The notes under the pieces were generated by a model. The model was not told the origin of the DNA and did not search any database. It was given only the letters and a program-made list of their open reading frames with translations. Positions 17,669 through 36,836 of a stretch of 64,000 bases of DNA are shown one piece after another; the first letter of the stretch is position 1, and each line of letters starts with the position of its first letter. The DNA comes from Persicirhabdus sediminis. Lineage in GTDB: Bacteria > Verrucomicrobiota > Verrucomicrobiia > Verrucomicrobiales > Akkermansiaceae. Location: positions 1-64,000 of the forward strand of contig NZ_JAENIM010000032.1 in the NCBI RefSeq assembly GCF_016595495.1, given 5' to 3'. The translations under genes and the position numbers were made by a program.

Positions 17669-17690
17669 GTTGCCAAAAAGAACAATTTCA

Positions 17691-17727
17691 AATGCTCAGC
17701 TGATTCATTCAGCTGAGCATTTTTTTT
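17691..17727 (+). terminator. Terminator of rplU-rpmA
   Basis: A 13-bp stem AATGCTCAGCTGA/TCAGCTGAGCATT with a 5-nt loop is followed by a run of seven T. Confidence 0.93.
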
Positions 17728-17789: not shown

Positions 17790-17817
17790 TTGTGCTGTGA
17801 GTGATCGCCACTATAAT
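17790..17817 (+). promoter_or_regulatory. Candidate sigma-70-type promoter of the luxE-luxC-like pair
   Basis: TTGTGC at 17790 and a perfect TATAAT at 17812 are separated by 16 bp, between the rpmA terminator and the luxE-like gene. The -10 overlaps the ATG at 17816. If it is used, the transcript would start near 17824 and translation near the in-frame ATG at 17831, almost leaderless. Confidence 0.3.
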
Positions 17818-18895
17818 GCAGCCATCTAAAATGGACGCGATTGTAGACAAAATCACCCGCTGGATTGGCGCACCTGAAAGTGACACCGAGACCAGCTTTG
17901 ACGAGCTAGCCATCGAGCTATTTCATTACCAATTTGCCCATAACATGGCGTATCAGAATTACTGCCGCGCGCTGGGCATCGATACCGCTGAGCAAATTTC
18001 CAGCTGGCGCGACATCCCAGCGGTGACCACGGATGTTTTCAAGCTAGCTGCCCACAACCCGAGCAGCGTGGATATCACCAGCTGCAATCACGTTTTCCAT
18101 ACCTCTGGCACCACGGGAGAAAGTTTTGGTTGTCACTATTTCCCCTCGCTGGACATTTACGAATCATCGATTCTGAGCGCGTGGCACGAGCTCGACCAAC
18201 CCGCCATCAGCCAGCCATTGATCTTCACCAAAAACCACTCATTGAGCCCGCATTCGTCGCTGGTGCACATGTTTGAGTGCTTGCGCCGCAGCTATGCAGC
18301 CAACACTGACGATTCGATTTACCTGATCGACGGTGACGGCCAGCTGGACGTTGATGCCGTGCGCCGCGCTGCCGCGTCGGACAAACCAGTAAGCCTGCTG
18401 GGCACGGCGCTCGCCTTTCTACACCTATTCCAGCTGATGGAAAAATCTGGCGACTCATTCACCCTGCCAGCTGGCAGCTGGGCGTTGGAAACTGGCGGTT
18501 ACAAAGGCAGCCAGTTCTCGCTCAGCAAAGAAGAACTGTACGCGTTGTTTGCGGAAAAACTTGGCCTGCAACCGGACCAGCTAGTCAACGAATACAGCAT
18601 GACCGAGCTGAGCAGCCAGTTTTATACCAGAGGCATTGGCAACGCCCATTGCGGTCCACGATGGACGCGCACACGCGTCATCGACCCAAATACCGGCGCC
18701 GAGGTGGCGCAAGGTGAGCTGGGATATCTGGTGATTTACGATCTGGCAAATGTCCACTCGGTCAGCGCCATCCGCACCCAAGACCTCGCCATTTCCTGCG
18801 GCGAAAACCAATTCATCTTAATAGGCCGCGATCCATCCGCATTGCCGCGCGGGTGCTCACGCAGCGCCCAAGAATCACTGCAAGCCGCCAAATAA
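17816..18895 (+). CDS. luxE: LuxE-like acyl-protein synthetase
   Basis: This 359-residue protein (from the ATG at 17816; GTG 17801 and ATG 17831 are alternatives) is of the LuxE/PaaK adenylate-forming family. It activates a fatty acid with ATP and passes it to its own Cys and then to a LuxC reductase. Visible blocks are FDELAIELFHYQFAHNMAYQNYC, IPAVTTDVFKLA, the nucleotide loop HTSGTTGESFGC at about residue 98, GSWALETGGYKG and QLVNEYSMTELSSQFY. It is followed 19 bp later by the LuxC-like gene. No luciferase or LuxD gene is visible. The symbol marks family membership, not bioluminescence. Confidence 0.85.
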   Translation: MQPSKMDAIVDKITRWIGAPESDTETSFDELAIELFHYQFAHNMAYQNYCRALGIDTAEQISSWRDIPAVTTDVFKLAAHNPSSVDITSCNHVFHTSGTTGESFGCHYFPSLDIYESSILSAWHELDQPAISQPLIFTKNHSLSPHSSLVHMFECLRRSYAANTDDSIYLIDGDGQLDVDAVRRAAASDKPVSLLGTALAFLHLFQLMEKSGDSFTLPAGSWALETGGYKGSQFSLSKEELYALFAEKLGLQPDQLVNEYSMTELSSQFYTRGIGNAHCGPRWTRTRVIDPNTGAEVAQGELGYLVIYDLANVHSVSAIRTQDLAISCGENQFILIGRDPSALPRGCSRSAQESLQAAK

Positions 18896-18914
18896 TTTCC
18901 AGCTAGAAACCACC

Positions 18915-20015
18915 ATGCCTACACCTCTTCACCACCGCGCTAGATTGATTGCCAGAGCGAGCGCACCATTTAGCGAATTCCTCGGCAGCTTCCGCGCCAA
19001 CGACCTCATCCACTGGCTCGACGGCGAGCTGGGCAACCACTCAGCGCTAGGGCATTTCATCCCGCACGGGCGCATCCGCAGCCGCGCCATTCCAGCTAGA
19101 AATATCCTCCACATCGTCAGCGGCAATACCCCGCACGGCGGCATGCAGAGCCTGCTCAACGGGCTCATCCTGGGGGCCTATAATTTTGTCAAAACTCCCT
19201 CAGGCGGCCTGCCGGAGTTGGAAGCCTACGTCGACGCCTTGCCCACTGAGCTAAAATCACTAGTCACTCTGAGCCCGACTATTCCCGACTCGTGGTGGGC
19301 GCGCGCTGATGCGGTGATCGCCACCGGATCCGACGCCAGCATGGCGGAGATTCAGAAAAAAATTCAGCCTGGGCAGAAATTCATCACCCACGGGCACAAG
19401 CTGAGCATTGGCATCATCGCCGAGCCAGCTGGCAAATCGCTGCGCGAACTCGCGCAACTTGCGGTGAATGACATCTGCCGCTACAACCAACACGGCTGCC
19501 TTTCCAGCCAAGCGATTTACGTCAAATCCAGCGATCAGCTCAGCGTGCGTGAATTTGCCAACCAACTGGCCGATGTGATGGCAGAATATGAAATCCAAAA
19601 CCCACGTGGAGAGATCGACATTTCCTCAGCTGGAGCGATCAGCAATGCACGCGAAACCTATCGATTTCTCGCAGCCAACTGCCCCGACGCCGACATCTGG
19701 CAGAGCGCCGATGATACCTCGTGGACGGTGATTTATGAACAATCACCTGTGCTGAAAGCCAGCCCGCTGAACCGCTTCATCTACGTCAGACCTCTGCCCG
19801 ATGATCTCAGCCAGCTCGGCCCCGAGCTGCGCTACTTATCGACTGCGGCTGTCCACCCATTCACTGCGGAAGTCGCCGAGTCATTCAGCCATTTACCAGC
19901 CAGCCGGCTGTGCGCGCTGGGTGAGTCGCAAAACCCAACACTCTTCTGGCACCACGACGGCTATGCATCGATTGCTGAACTCGTCAGCTGGCAGGACATC
20001 GACCTGCCAATGTAA
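18915..20015 (+). CDS. luxC: LuxC-like acyl-CoA/acyl-protein reductase
   Basis: This 366-residue protein is of the LuxC family, aldehyde-dehydrogenase-fold enzymes that reduce thioester-bound acyl groups to aldehydes with NADPH. The blocks ARNILHIVSGNTPHGGMQSL and GLILGAYNFVKTPSGGLPEL form the nucleotide-binding half. The catalytic Cys195 lies in YNQHGCLSSQAIYV. It is shorter than the roughly 480-residue Vibrio enzyme. With the preceding LuxE-like protein it forms a fatty-acid-to-aldehyde module. The aldehyde's destination is unknown, since no decarbonylase, luciferase or polyketide genes are adjacent. Confidence 0.87.
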   Translation: MPTPLHHRARLIARASAPFSEFLGSFRANDLIHWLDGELGNHSALGHFIPHGRIRSRAIPARNILHIVSGNTPHGGMQSLLNGLILGAYNFVKTPSGGLPELEAYVDALPTELKSLVTLSPTIPDSWWARADAVIATGSDASMAEIQKKIQPGQKFITHGHKLSIGIIAEPAGKSLRELAQLAVNDICRYNQHGCLSSQAIYVKSSDQLSVREFANQLADVMAEYEIQNPRGEIDISSAGAISNARETYRFLAANCPDADIWQSADDTSWTVIYEQSPVLKASPLNRFIYVRPLPDDLSQLGPELRYLSTAAVHPFTAEVAESFSHLPASRLCALGESQNPTLFWHHDGYASIAELVSWQDIDLPM

Positions 20016-20136: not shown

Positions 20137-20364
20137 ATGAGCAGCGAATCACCAATCACGACCACGGGCACCATCATCCAGCGCTACAACAATGGCGTTT
20201 ATCAAGTCTCTCTGCCTAATGGCAAAAAGATCATTGGCCACGTTCCCAGCTACCTTGAGGAGCTACACAGCTCGCTGCAGCCAGAAGATCAGGTGAGTCT
20301 GGAGATGACGCCTTTCGACTTCGAAAAAGGCCGCATTGTAGGCAAAGTGGAAGCGGGAGAATAA
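20137..20364 (+). CDS. Divergent IF-1-like S1/OB-fold protein
   Basis: The 75 residues align over their whole length with translation initiation factor IF-1: GTIIQRYNNGVYQVSLPNGK at the start and PFDFEKGRIVGKV at the end. The usual central HISGKxRxxxIRILPGD segment is replaced by GHVPSYLEELHSSLQPEDQ. This is therefore probably a paralogue, with the canonical infA elsewhere, rather than the primary initiation factor. It lies about 120 bp after the luxC-like gene and has its own terminator. Confidence 0.75.
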   Translation: MSSESPITTTGTIIQRYNNGVYQVSLPNGKKIIGHVPSYLEELHSSLQPEDQVSLEMTPFDFEKGRIVGKVEAGE

Positions 20365-20518: not shown

Positions 20519-23500
20519 TTACGGCTGACCGTCTTTGATGAACTCCATGATATTGCGTTTCTCGATCTCAGCTTCGCGCTCACGCAGTTTCATGCGCTGC
20601 TCGTAGAATGCTTTCTCTTTGTCGGTCCAAACGTTATTTTCGTCGTATTCACCGATAAATGGCACGTTCAGGTCGATCCAAGCAGCAATCAGGTCTTTCT
20701 CGCGCTTGCTGAGCTTCACATCGTGATGGCCTTTTTCCAGCATCTCGATCATGCCGCTATTCGCAGAGCCAGCGTAGTATGGAGGAGTCGCTTCCACCGT
20801 AGCTAGACGGGTGTAATAATCCACCCACTCGTTTGGCATACCGCTACCCATTTTGCCATCTGGACGTCTGCCCACTTTGAGCAATGTCAGGTATGACTGG
20901 TAGAGCTCGCGCTTCATGGTATTGGCACCACGCTCTTCAACGAGGTCGAACACAGGTGTACGAGTCAGATCAATTTCCTTAGCTTCCTTACCTGGAGCGT
21001 GACATTCAATACAATGTTTGTCCCAGATTGGCTGGATCAGCTTAGCGTAGCTGAATCCTTCCTTGTCGGTTTCATAGAATGGCTTGATCTGCTGAGGCGC
21101 ACTTCTGATTGCCATGTTCACACTTGGCAGTGGCGCATCTTTTTTATCTTCGTGACAACCGATGCAGGAGAAATTCTCACCCGGCATCAGAGTAGCCCAG
21201 CTACGCATGGTCTGCGCGGCGTGGCCATTTTTATCAATCAGCTGAAGGTAGATTGGCTTACGAGCTGGCACTTCAAACATAGCAGAGCCATCTTCGTGCA
21301 CGTCCACTTCACCCAAGATACGCTTGGCATCAAATGTAGCGGAACCCACACCTACTGGAGTCACGGTATGCACACCAAAGCTGGAGTACTTTTTACCAGG
21401 TCCGATTTCGTCGCGAGGAGGTCCCCACAGCGCGCCACCTAGAGTGACAGGCTTGTAGTCGAGCTCGATCACACGGATTTTATCAATGCTACCCGGCTCG
21501 ATGCCTTCAGCACTTGGCCCGTGGTAGACGTTCTGCACGTACATGGTACCTGTGTCCTTCTTGTAATCCACCTTAGATGGCTTCAATACTGGAACTGGAC
21601 GCTCGCGCACAGGAATCGCCTGTAGCACAGACAAGTCGCGGTTAGCAGCTAAGAGCTCGCGAGTGCCGTCGCGCTGCATGTAGTAGAGCTTGTAGCGCAT
21701 GTGCTCTGGCTCCTTACGCTTATCAACAAACCCCCTTTTAGTGGTCATGTAGCCACCTAGTGGGCTGTAGCTGATGAGGAAGTCATTTTCGCTAAATGGA
21801 TATGGATAAGAATACTGATCCCCTTCACGTCCGTAGTGGTCACCACCACGACGTTTCTTCTCGTGATCCCAGCCAATGAACTCCAGACCTTCATATTTCT
21901 GACGGCCCTTGTGGATATCAATTTCCACCAGCTTACCACCCTGAGAGGTATGGTAACCACCAGCAATACCTAGCACCTTGTGGCTGCCTGGTACGGCGCG
22001 TGTGTGCTGAAAGCTAGTCGGCTCGGCAGTTTGGTTCCCGTAGAACTCAGTCTGGTTGGTACCATCTGGGTTCATCGCAAACAATGAGTGAGCGTAAGTC
22101 TGACCACGGTCGTTGTAGTCACGGCGGTTGTAAACCACACGTCCATCATTGAGCATGGTAGCCTGAGTGGTATTCGTTTGGTCAAAACCGACACGGCGCT
22201 GGTACTTACCATCCTTGTTCATCAGGAAGAAGTTGGAGCAATCACCCCAGCCACATGTCACATCCTGCACAATGCGGGATGAGTTGAATATGATGTCACC
22301 ATTTGGCAGATAAGTTGGCTCGATGTCAGCACCGTAGTTTTCGTCATCTGTCAGCGCGCGGATCTCACGCGATGCTAGGTCCATTTCGTAAATGCAATAG
22401 TTGCCAGTTTCTGGCGCACTTTCTGCGATCGTACCAATTGATCGATTAGTCTTACGCCAAGCAAATAGCAACCTTTTGGCATCAAATGACAGCTCTGGGT
22501 CGCGCACGATGCCACCTTTAGAGTCGAACAATAATTCATCTTTAGCAAAGTGGCCATTGCCCTCAGGCGAGAGGTCGATGATGCGCAACTGAGATTCACC
22601 TACAGGCAAACCTTCGGTTTCAGTTTGCGTATAGATACCAGCGACCGATCCAAAGTTTTGGTGAGTGGCGTAAATGATCTGCTGCGTCTCGTTGAGCAGC
22701 GGAGCAATGCGATCTTGGCGGCGCACCTTACATGCATCCACATACAGCTGGAGCAATTCACTACTGCCAGCGCCTTGACCACTCTTCACCAAAGCATCGA
22801 GTTTCTTAGCTACCTTAGCGCCTTTGTCGCCAAGGTCATTGATCACCTCTTTGACGAGTTTGACTTCAAGCTCAGCAGAGCGGTTTGCATCAAAGTAATT
22901 TGTGAAATCCTTACGGGCATCATAAACGCCGCTGCCGAGCTCTCCGTGAATTTGGTTGTCTTGCAGAAACCAATCCATCTCATGTGGGTAATCTGCCCAC
23001 ATTTGCTTGCCATCATCAGTATGCAAGTAGAACTCAAGCAGTTCACCTTCATAGGTGCGATAAGCCACGATTTCATCCGAGTTCACCTTAGAGCGCAGGT
23101 TGGCCATAGAAGCCGCCCAGCTACCCTTATTTTCGTAGAGCTTCGGAAACATATCGGTCTCCGGTGGAGCTGCGGCTTTGGTGAAGCGAAGTTGTCTGAA
23201 ATTGATAAATGCGTGCACATGCTTGGCGCTCGTTTTCAGCTCGATCGTATGAGTGCCTGCCTCCAACTCCAACTCCCCCATGGAAACCAAGCGGTAATCT
23301 GACCAATCGTCACCATTTGGTAAATGTCTATGCAAGACACGCTCGCCATTCACCCACAGCTCAGCTGGTACTCCGCGCTGAGCTGCGTACTCGATGAGCA
23401 TATTGCGCTTCATCTTCTCAGGCACCTCAAATGACCACTTAGCCACCGCATTGCCTGGCCAACTTGTAATCTGGCTATCTTCGCCTCTAGTCACATGCGC

Positions 23501-23620
23501 CTTTGGCCCATCAAAGGTGACATCTTTTGGGAGACAATAAAGATCGCCATCAGCTCCCAGTGCCAGCGACATGCTGAGCATGGAAACAGCAATAATCCCC
23601 GTTCCTATATATTTTCTCAT
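20519..23620 (-). CDS. Exported dihaem protein with hydrazine-synthase-alpha-like domain
   Basis: This 1033-residue protein has a signal peptide at residues 1-22 (cleavage near LALGAD). The N-terminal part resembles a carbohydrate- or PA14-like beta-sandwich (NMLIEYAAQRGVPAELWVNG). The centre is a TolB/WD40-type propeller (DPELSFDAKRLLFAW, EPTYLPNGDIIFNSSR, QATMLNDGRVVYNR). The blocks RERPVPVLKPSKVDY to ENFSCIGCHE match the HzsA-related middle region. Two CxxCH haem sites are present: CIGCH 819-823 and CIECH 870-874. True hydrazine synthase needs beta and gamma subunits that are absent here, so anammox chemistry is not implied. It is translationally coupled to the preceding propeller gene. 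Confidence 0.85.
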   Translation of the reverse strand: MRKYIGTGIIAVSMLSMSLALGADGDLYCLPKDVTFDGPKAHVTRGEDSQITSWPGNAVAKWSFEVPEKMKRNMLIEYAAQRGVPAELWVNGERVLHRHLPNGDDWSDYRLVSMGELELEAGTHTIELKTSAKHVHAFINFRQLRFTKAAAPPETDMFPKLYENKGSWAASMANLRSKVNSDEIVAYRTYEGELLEFYLHTDDGKQMWADYPHEMDWFLQDNQIHGELGSGVYDARKDFTNYFDANRSAELEVKLVKEVINDLGDKGAKVAKKLDALVKSGQGAGSSELLQLYVDACKVRRQDRIAPLLNETQQIIYATHQNFGSVAGIYTQTETEGLPVGESQLRIIDLSPEGNGHFAKDELLFDSKGGIVRDPELSFDAKRLLFAWRKTNRSIGTIAESAPETGNYCIYEMDLASREIRALTDDENYGADIEPTYLPNGDIIFNSSRIVQDVTCGWGDCSNFFLMNKDGKYQRRVGFDQTNTTQATMLNDGRVVYNRRDYNDRGQTYAHSLFAMNPDGTNQTEFYGNQTAEPTSFQHTRAVPGSHKVLGIAGGYHTSQGGKLVEIDIHKGRQKYEGLEFIGWDHEKKRRGGDHYGREGDQYSYPYPFSENDFLISYSPLGGYMTTKRGFVDKRKEPEHMRYKLYYMQRDGTRELLAANRDLSVLQAIPVRERPVPVLKPSKVDYKKDTGTMYVQNVYHGPSAEGIEPGSIDKIRVIELDYKPVTLGGALWGPPRDEIGPGKKYSSFGVHTVTPVGVGSATFDAKRILGEVDVHEDGSAMFEVPARKPIYLQLIDKNGHAAQTMRSWATLMPGENFSCIGCHEDKKDAPLPSVNMAIRSAPQQIKPFYETDKEGFSYAKLIQPIWDKHCIECHAPGKEAKEIDLTRTPVFDLVEERGANTMKRELYQSYLTLLKVGRRPDGKMGSGMPNEWVDYYTRLATVEATPPYYAGSANSGMIEMLEKGHHDVKLSKREKDLIAAWIDLNVPFIGEYDENNVWTDKEKAFYEQRMKLREREAEIEKRNIMEFIKDGQP

Positions 23621-28346: not shown

Positions 28347-29456
28347 ATGAAAAAAACCACATTGTTATCAATGCTATACGGCGCCAGTATCATCGGCGCA
28401 AGTGCAGCGAACCTCTCGCTGGACTTATCCGACGGAAATTCTATCGACTGGCACGATGCTAGTTGGCTCAACGACGGCAACTCAGCAGGTTGGTCAGATA
28501 ACTCCGACGCGACCATCACTAATTCAGCAGGAGCAACAACTAGGCTCAGCTTCAGCCAAGATGTGACCGTCAACAACTTACATTTCGATAAGATAGGCGA
28601 CACCAAGCAGGTCCATGCATTTACCGGAAGTAACGGCGCGACTTTCACGGTAAACGGTGAACTAACAAGCAATCTAGGTGATAAAATCGCCTTTAACGGT
28701 ATAGGAACCCAGCTAGGCGGCAGCGGCACCATCTCAGGAGCTGAAGTCCACCTAAACAATAACACCATGCTCGCTAGCAATAGCAACCTGACTGTGGCAG
28801 CTGGTGGCATCCTGAGAATCGCTCAATCGGCTAAATTCAACGGCGCAGCGCTTGGTCTCAACGGCGGCACATTGAAAATCAGCAGCACGCTCGCTTCTGA
28901 CTCATTAAGCGCTCTGCGCGGCAATGGCAACATCGAGCTAGACGGTGGAACTGGCTCCAATACCGTGATCACCATGTCACTCAATATCGGCGCGAATGCT
29001 GATGGCTCAGGCGTTGGCCGCATGTATGTTGATAACAAAAATACAGGTCCAGGTAATGCAGGTCGTTATACCTTCCAGCTAGCTGGCGTGAATGAATTCG
29101 ACCTCACTAAGATTGGCGATACGCTTGATAGTGACCAATTCATCGGCACAGATGACGCATCATTCACCCTTGTTTACGGCGGTGAACTGCTGCTCAAAAT
29201 CAACGAAGATATCGCAGGCACTGACCTTGAGCTGGGTGACACCTTCAAACTCTTCGATGTAGCGAACTCATCAGGTGATTTCGACAGCATCAACGATGGT
29301 GGCTACCTCGCCAGCATCAATGAAAACTGGGGGTGGGAATTTGACCCTACTACAGGTGAACTCAAAGTGATTGAAATCCCAGAACCAAGCTCAGCAGCAC
29401 TGCTTGGTCTAGCAGGTGTGGCCATGATCATGCGCCGTAGAAATACCCGCGCCTAA
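28347..29456 (+). CDS. PEP-CTERM-sorted secreted protein
   Basis: This 369-residue protein has a signal peptide ending near ASAANL. A beta-rich, low-Cys body contains autotransporter-like strand repeats (ATFTVNGELTSNLGDKIAF, GTISGAEVHLNNNTMLAS). It ends IPEPSSAALLGLAGVAMIMRRRN, that is, a PEP motif, hydrophobic helix and Arg-rich tail, recognised and cleaved by an exosortase. It shares the IGANADGSG block with the second PEP-CTERM protein at 46.2 kb. It is likely surface- or matrix-attached; ligand unknown. A strong terminator follows. Confidence 0.88.
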   Translation: MKKTTLLSMLYGASIIGASAANLSLDLSDGNSIDWHDASWLNDGNSAGWSDNSDATITNSAGATTRLSFSQDVTVNNLHFDKIGDTKQVHAFTGSNGATFTVNGELTSNLGDKIAFNGIGTQLGGSGTISGAEVHLNNNTMLASNSNLTVAAGGILRIAQSAKFNGAALGLNGGTLKISSTLASDSLSALRGNGNIELDGGTGSNTVITMSLNIGANADGSGVGRMYVDNKNTGPGNAGRYTFQLAGVNEFDLTKIGDTLDSDQFIGTDDASFTLVYGGELLLKINEDIAGTDLELGDTFKLFDVANSSGDFDSINDGGYLASINENWGWEFDPTTGELKVIEIPEPSSAALLGLAGVAMIMRRRNTRA

Positions 29457-36284: not shown

Positions 36285-36595
36285 GCCAGCAGGACCATTT
36301 TCTAGCTGAAGATCGGCGACATTCCCCCCGGCTGAAAATCTACAACACCATTCTCTGTCCGAAATTAAAGCCAACTGGACCATGTTCTGGCTGAAGACCG
36401 GCGACATTCCCCCCGGCTGAAAATCTACAACATCATTCTCTGTGCGAAATTAAATCTAGCAGGACCATGTTCTAGCCGAAGACCGGCGACATCCCCCCAG
36501 CTGAAAAGCCACAACATCATTCTCTGTCCGAAATTAAAGCTAGCAGGATTATATTCTAGCTGAAAGCCGGTCACCTCCTCCGCTGGGCTGAAAGC
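36285..36595. repeat. 85-bp tandem repeat array (about 3.6 units)
   Basis: Units begin at 36285, 36370, 36455 and 36539. Each contains AGCAGGACCAT (or a variant), TTCTAGCTGAAGA, CGGCGACATTCCCCCCGGC, TGAAAATCTACAACA and ATTCTCTGTCCGAAATTAAA. Units differ at scattered positions, so the array is not brand new. A short minus-strand frame (36425-36697) exists only because the repeat lacks stops. I do not regard it as a gene. Confidence 0.85.
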
Positions 36596-36836
36596 CCATA
36601 AGATCAAAGCCCAGGGTTTTAACCCTGGGGCCAAGCCAAACCTAAAACCCGCGCGCTGAAAGTGCGCCAGAAAAGGCGACCACCACCTCCCATTCATCTG
36701 GTCAAAAATGGCGCCTCCTTACAAAGATCCTCCTCTCCGCCTTAACACCCCTTCTAGCGCACTTTCAGCGCGCATACTCAAACACCTCCCCCCCATGGCT
36801 AAAGCCATGGGCTCTGATCTTGAGGGCTTTCAGCCC
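36585..36836. repeat. Long imperfect inverted repeat with hairpins
   Basis: GCGCGCTGAAAGTGCGC at 36651-36667 is exactly inverted at 36757-36773. GGGCTGAAAGCCC near 36585 is inverted as GGGCTTTCAGCCC at 36824-36836. Between these lies a self-complementary CCCAGGGTTTTAACCCTGGG (36611-36630), matched on the other arm by a degenerate CCATGGCTAAAGCCATGGG. The whole could fold into a large cruciform and forms the left border of the 18-bp minisatellite. Confidence 0.75.

Follow-up and report, generated by a model that had tools for sequence, protein, structure and literature searches.

A LuxE-LuxC-type reductase pair without luciferase in Verrucomicrobiota, with relatives in TPP-riboswitch operons

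Introduction

The closest described system to the genes studied here is the reductase of the luminous luxCDABE operons, known in structure from the Photobacterium LuxC-LuxE complex (PDB 7xc6). It belongs to the same two protein families as the pair of Persicirhabdus sediminis that we analyse and has the same catalytic cysteines and nucleotide loop. The solved folds closest to the model of LuxE are a different group, the PaaK-type aryl-acid CoA ligases (BT_0428, PaaK1/2), which are 14-17% identical to it. Unlike these ligases, our LuxE has a reductase as its partner and carries a conserved cysteine (RGCS) at its C-terminal end. A search of the open-access literature, mainly at the level of titles and abstracts, gave no account of the verrucomicrobial pair or of the TPP-linked operons described below, and the main text of a paper on TPP regulons (PMC3766115) has neither "lux" nor "reductase".

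We studied a stretch of 64,000 nucleotides (the window; positions 1 to 64,000 of contig NZ_JAENIM010000032.1), in which a sequence-only reading had pointed out a luxE-luxC-like pair expected to turn a fatty acid into an aldehyde. Our analysis defines a dark and widespread branch of the lux-reductase fold within Verrucomicrobiota, in which LuxC is short and natural fusions of LuxE with LuxC occur. It also shows that other bacteria have a non-luminous LuxE-LuxC type linked with control by vitamin B1.

The pair in the window

Both genes lie on the forward strand in the order luxE-luxC, separated by 19 bp. The features of the locus are:

17690..17722, + strand: terminator-like hairpin after rpmA, a 14-pair stem followed by a T run (consensus match only)
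17816..18895, + strand: luxE-like gene for an acyl-adenylating acyl-protein synthetase of 359 aa (ATG start at 17816, stop codon ending at 18895)
18101..18115, + strand: codons of the TSGTT nucleotide-binding loop, LuxE residues 96-100
18854..18856, + strand: codon of LuxE Cys347, the acyl carrier cysteine (RGCS)
18915..20015, + strand: luxC-like gene for an acyl-thioester reductase of 366 aa with the aldehyde-dehydrogenase fold
19497..19499, + strand: codon of LuxC Cys195, the catalytic cysteine (NQHGCLSSQ)
20137..20364, + strand: IF-1-like gene downstream of the pair (PF01176, 37.3 bits; TIGR00008, 49.9 bits against a cut-off of 61.15)

The open reading frames agree with the genes and spacing of the sequence-only reading, which had also named the LuxE loop and the LuxC motif with Cys195; an alternative GTG start at 17801 would add five residues to LuxE. 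Its family assignments were confirmed by profile searches, in which LuxE scored 58.4 bits against PF04443 (cut-off 24.9) and LuxC 166.4 bits against PF05893 (cut-off 21). The top PDB sequence matches were the two chains of the luminous complex, 7xc6_E for LuxE (E 1e-13) and 7xc6_A for LuxC. Fold searches with the AlphaFold models (pLDDT 90.3 for LuxE and 95.9 for LuxC) placed 7xc6_A first for LuxC (E 2e-22, TM 0.76), with aldehyde dehydrogenases next, and PaaK-type adenylating ligases first for LuxE.

The catalytic residues, whose loss would have spoken against a working pair, are all kept. In the alignment with Photorhabdus LuxE, Cys347 falls on the cysteine of KGCA. This position is a cysteine in 62 of 62 aligned members, in all of which the SGTT of the loop is also identical. 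Cys195 aligns with the cysteine of Photorhabdus LuxC and is invariant in the alignment of 81 members. The shortness of LuxC, put at about 110 residues relative to the Vibrio protein, also stands, at 366 aa against 480 in Photorhabdus and 477 in 7xc6_A. The part that it lacks is the N-terminal ~100 residues, which are present in the luminous LuxC, including that of Photorhabdus, and in the thiamin-type LuxC described below. The short form is common to the whole verrucomicrobial clade, and the absence of this segment could change the oligomer or the function.

The pair is nevertheless far from the luminous proteins. Identity to Photorhabdus is ~21% for LuxE and ~24% for LuxC, and the luxE-luxC order is unlike that of luxCDABE. 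Against the luminous equivalogs the window proteins stay below the cut-offs, with 64 of 550 bits for LuxE (NF052244) and 70.8 of 750 bits for LuxC (NF052251). Because these scores are so low, details of the chemistry may differ from the luminous type.

The observation that the window has no luciferase extends to the whole genome, which has no match to PF00296 (10 of 14 control genomes do). The same holds for the decarbonylase reported as missing from the window: the aldehyde-deformylating oxygenase family PF11266 has no match in the genome and matches in two of the 14 controls. Wax ester synthase (PF03007) matched neither this genome nor any control, and no LuxD thioesterase was found beside the pair. 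The luciferase family is also absent among the recurrent neighbours of the verrucomicrobial relatives, and the suspicion that the pair might sit beside luciferase in other genomes was not borne out at the loci examined. The absence of luciferase beside LuxE-LuxC is not in itself exceptional, because non-luminous stand-alone pairs are widespread.

Spread and coupling in Verrucomicrobiota

A scan of one genome per species (84,980 species) gave 303 confirmed loci, 80 of which were kept; all are verrucomicrobial except one oddly binned contig (Porticoccaceae). In 54 of the 80, luxE lies directly 5' of luxC, mostly overlapping it when the starts of the longest frames are used. Seven loci (L093, L096, L099, L100, L101, L102 and L128) encode a single protein of 695-824 aa that carries both active sites, and these fusions have a single origin on the LuxE and LuxC trees. 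An eighth candidate, L124, was discarded as its two frames differ. LuxC stands alone in 19 loci, and 15 of the 18 LuxC-only genomes tested encode LuxE elsewhere.

In a survey of 142 genomes of the order, full-length LuxC and full-length LuxE were found in the same ten (Fisher's test, 1.5e-15, which ignores relatedness), and both were absent from every genome listed for g2, a large genus with genomes of 2.2-3.5 Mb. A survey of the phylum revealed remoter members as well, among them a family whose genomes measure 2.2-2.5 Mb.

The co-occurrence, the adjacency, the fusions, the unlinked LuxE genes and the invariant cysteines make it very likely that LuxE and LuxC work together and that selection maintains their catalysis. 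The fusions and the linkage further suggest that the two proteins form a complex. The pair is thus commoner than the window alone could show, and the case for a working unit is clearer.

TPP-riboswitch relatives outside the phylum

Searching the proteins of plasmid records brought up luxE-luxC pairs in Azospirillum, Pantoea, Pseudomonas, Priestia, Niallia and lactobacilli. We sampled nine of these operons (L043, L044, L045, L046, L048, L191, L192, L193 and L194). An SDR oxidoreductase belongs to them, often together with an NMT1/THI5-like ABC transporter or an NCS2 permease, or with ThiW in Niallia. The Rfam TPP riboswitch was found directly upstream of eight of the nine at the curated threshold, and the ninth, from Priestia, has one under that threshold (49 bits, E 1.2e-8). 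The sample includes near-copies, namely two Azospirillum and two lactobacilli operons, and a Pseudomonas copy broken into pieces, so that it represents about six independent lineages.

These operons are the nearest relatives that we sampled outside the phylum (28-38% identity to the window for LuxE and 29-30% for LuxC), and they share with the window pair the luxE-luxC order and the lack of luciferase. In both trees they form one clade that adjoins the verrucomicrobial clade, and the luminous Photorhabdus proteins fall outside the two (95/97 for LuxE, 99/97 for LuxC). This separation is support rather than proof, because the trees have midpoint roots and luminous LuxE sits on a long branch (1.83 changes per column). 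The two types also differ: the LuxC of the TPP-type operons is full-length (~485 aa, against 366 aa in the window), and the window pair lacks the riboswitch, the transporters and the SDR.

The records label the TPP-type genes as long-chain fatty acid--CoA ligase and acyl-CoA reductase. We think that they probably form a salvage operon for thiamin precursors, mislabelled as fatty-acid genes. The riboswitch, the transporters and the SDR suggest that an oxidised thiamin precursor would be imported and reduced to the alcohol. This tie to vitamin B1 makes a concrete and cheap substrate test possible.

Other non-luminous LuxC loci, in Chloroflexota (L049), Streptomyces (L188), Novosphingobium (L189) and Mycobacterium (L190), also lie away from luciferase, and LuxE adjoins LuxC in L049 and L188. 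All four are more distant on the trees and have other neighbours, and L188-L190 lack the TPP riboswitch.

Function and substrate

We consider it likely that the pair is a dedicated two-component carboxylic-acid reductase that uses ATP and NAD(P)H, acts on an acid that is probably small and does not serve to make light. Going by the conserved residues and the homology with the luminous complex, LuxE would adenylate the carboxylic acid with ATP and load the acyl group onto Cys347, from which it would pass to Cys195 of LuxC. LuxC would then use NAD(P)H to reduce the thioester, releasing an aldehyde. This aldehyde would go not to luciferase but to some other enzyme, such as a dehydrogenase encoded separately. 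A small carboxylic acid, rather than a role in light-making, is probable because the nearest relatives outside the phylum are under a vitamin B1 sensor. Ancestry and the PaaK-like fold of LuxE weakly favour a small, perhaps ring-bearing acid over tetradecanoate or another fatty acid.

The proposal that the pair turns a fatty acid into an aldehyde thus stands in one part, since an intact reductase pair of LuxE-LuxC type is present, and is not supported in the other: the proteins group apart from the luminous ones and have the TPP-type operons as sister group. "Fatty acid" is an assumption inherited from the lux name, and a lux name is no ground for reading "fatty aldehyde". The pair might still act like the luminous enzyme without light, supplying fatty aldehyde for lipids such as ether lipids or fatty alcohols. 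We regard this as possible but doubtful. Homology to the luminous fatty-acid reductase and the presence of plsC in a divergent cluster beside the pair at about 31 loci are consistent with it, but that cluster is otherwise made of housekeeping genes, LuxE and LuxC alike fall with the thiamin-linked type on the trees, the scores fall far under the luminous equivalog cut-offs and the genome has no match for an aldehyde decarbonylase.

A broader and rather unlikely scenario is that LuxE-LuxC diversified as a general carboxylic-acid reductase for cofactor salvage, of which bioluminescence would be one branch. The TPP operons would then serve to recover a thiamin precursor that had become oxidised. 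The verrucomicrobial pair, also in its single-chain fused form, would act on a related heterocyclic acid, reducing it in a pathway not yet described.

The verrucomicrobial pair could also do the very job of its sister operons, reducing an oxidised thiamin precursor (e.g., a pyrimidine or thiazole carboxylic acid) toward the alcohol for B1 salvage. The sister position of the TPP-type operons on both trees, the riboswitch upstream of all nine sampled (one of them below the curated score) and their ThiW and NMT1/THI5-like transporters argue for this. Yet, searches up to E 1 found no TPP riboswitch between 17650 and 20200 of the window, and none was found by motif at the pairs of the verrucomicrobial loci examined. 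A TPP riboswitch does precede thiC ~5 kb from the pair in L153, and there is a similar one in L154. Searches with blastp found neither an SDR nor matching transporters beside verrucomicrobial pairs; in the window the neighbours are rplU-rpmA and the IF-1-like gene. P. sediminis has ThiC and ThiG, and its only TPP riboswitch precedes thiC. These observations make B1 salvage by the pair improbable. Full thiamin control in Verrucomicrobiota was rejected, given that the pairs lack a riboswitch and that each of the ten genomes with the pair in the order survey also has ThiC and ThiG. What the verrucomicrobial pair has in common with the TPP-type operons is descent, not control.

Finally, that the pair is what is left of a former bioluminescence operon after decay or separation, as the short LuxC and the lack of a luciferase-family match in the genome might suggest, is extremely unlikely and was rejected: the frames are open, the catalytic residues are invariant, and the proteins spread through the phylum as a clade of their own, with fusions and with the short LuxC throughout.

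Chromosomal surroundings

No metabolic gene that could name the pathway is a constant companion of the pair across the 80 loci. The window pair had been described as lying right behind rplU-rpmA, which is correct for its position. A shared operon was rejected as a reading of this arrangement: the pair is probably separate, because the terminator-like hairpin intervenes and the pair sits elsewhere in other genomes. At 31-38 of ~90 loci (a few counted twice) it is found opposite a gene for a lipoprotein and the cluster tyrA-aroA-cmk-plsC, and the lone LuxE genes of L195 and L197 are at this site too. It looks like the ancestral location, from which the window pair would since have moved.

The IF-1-like gene follows the pair directly in L032, L040 and eight more loci, several of them of Akkermansiaceae type. 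It is a recurrent neighbour and, judged from gene order, a candidate associate of the module only. Other neighbours were set aside. A link to biotin was considered from bioB (identified by eye) and a ketoacyl-synthase beside the lone LuxC of Rubritalea profundi (L054), and again from a BioF-like neighbour in six loci, and both were inconsistent across loci. An aminotransferase-like frame just 5' of luxE in L163 was rejected as a partner, being one divergent case only.

The window has some further features. The hexamer CCAGCT/AGCTGG is strongly over-represented (277 occurrences against ~104 expected), also within luxE and luxC, and CCAGCTGG occurs 36 times against 1.4 expected, both counted over positions 1-64000. 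Downstream of the IF-1-like gene, 20519-23620 (- strand) encodes a protein of 1033 aa with a hydrazine synthase alpha middle domain (PF18582) that scores far under the hydrazine synthase equivalog. A protein with a C-terminal PEP-CTERM sorting motif (TIGR02595, 22.5 bits) is encoded at 28347-29456 (+ strand), and an Acido-Lenti-1 RNA (RF01687) lies at 36584-36629 (- strand), with 40.1 bits against a gathering score of 37.
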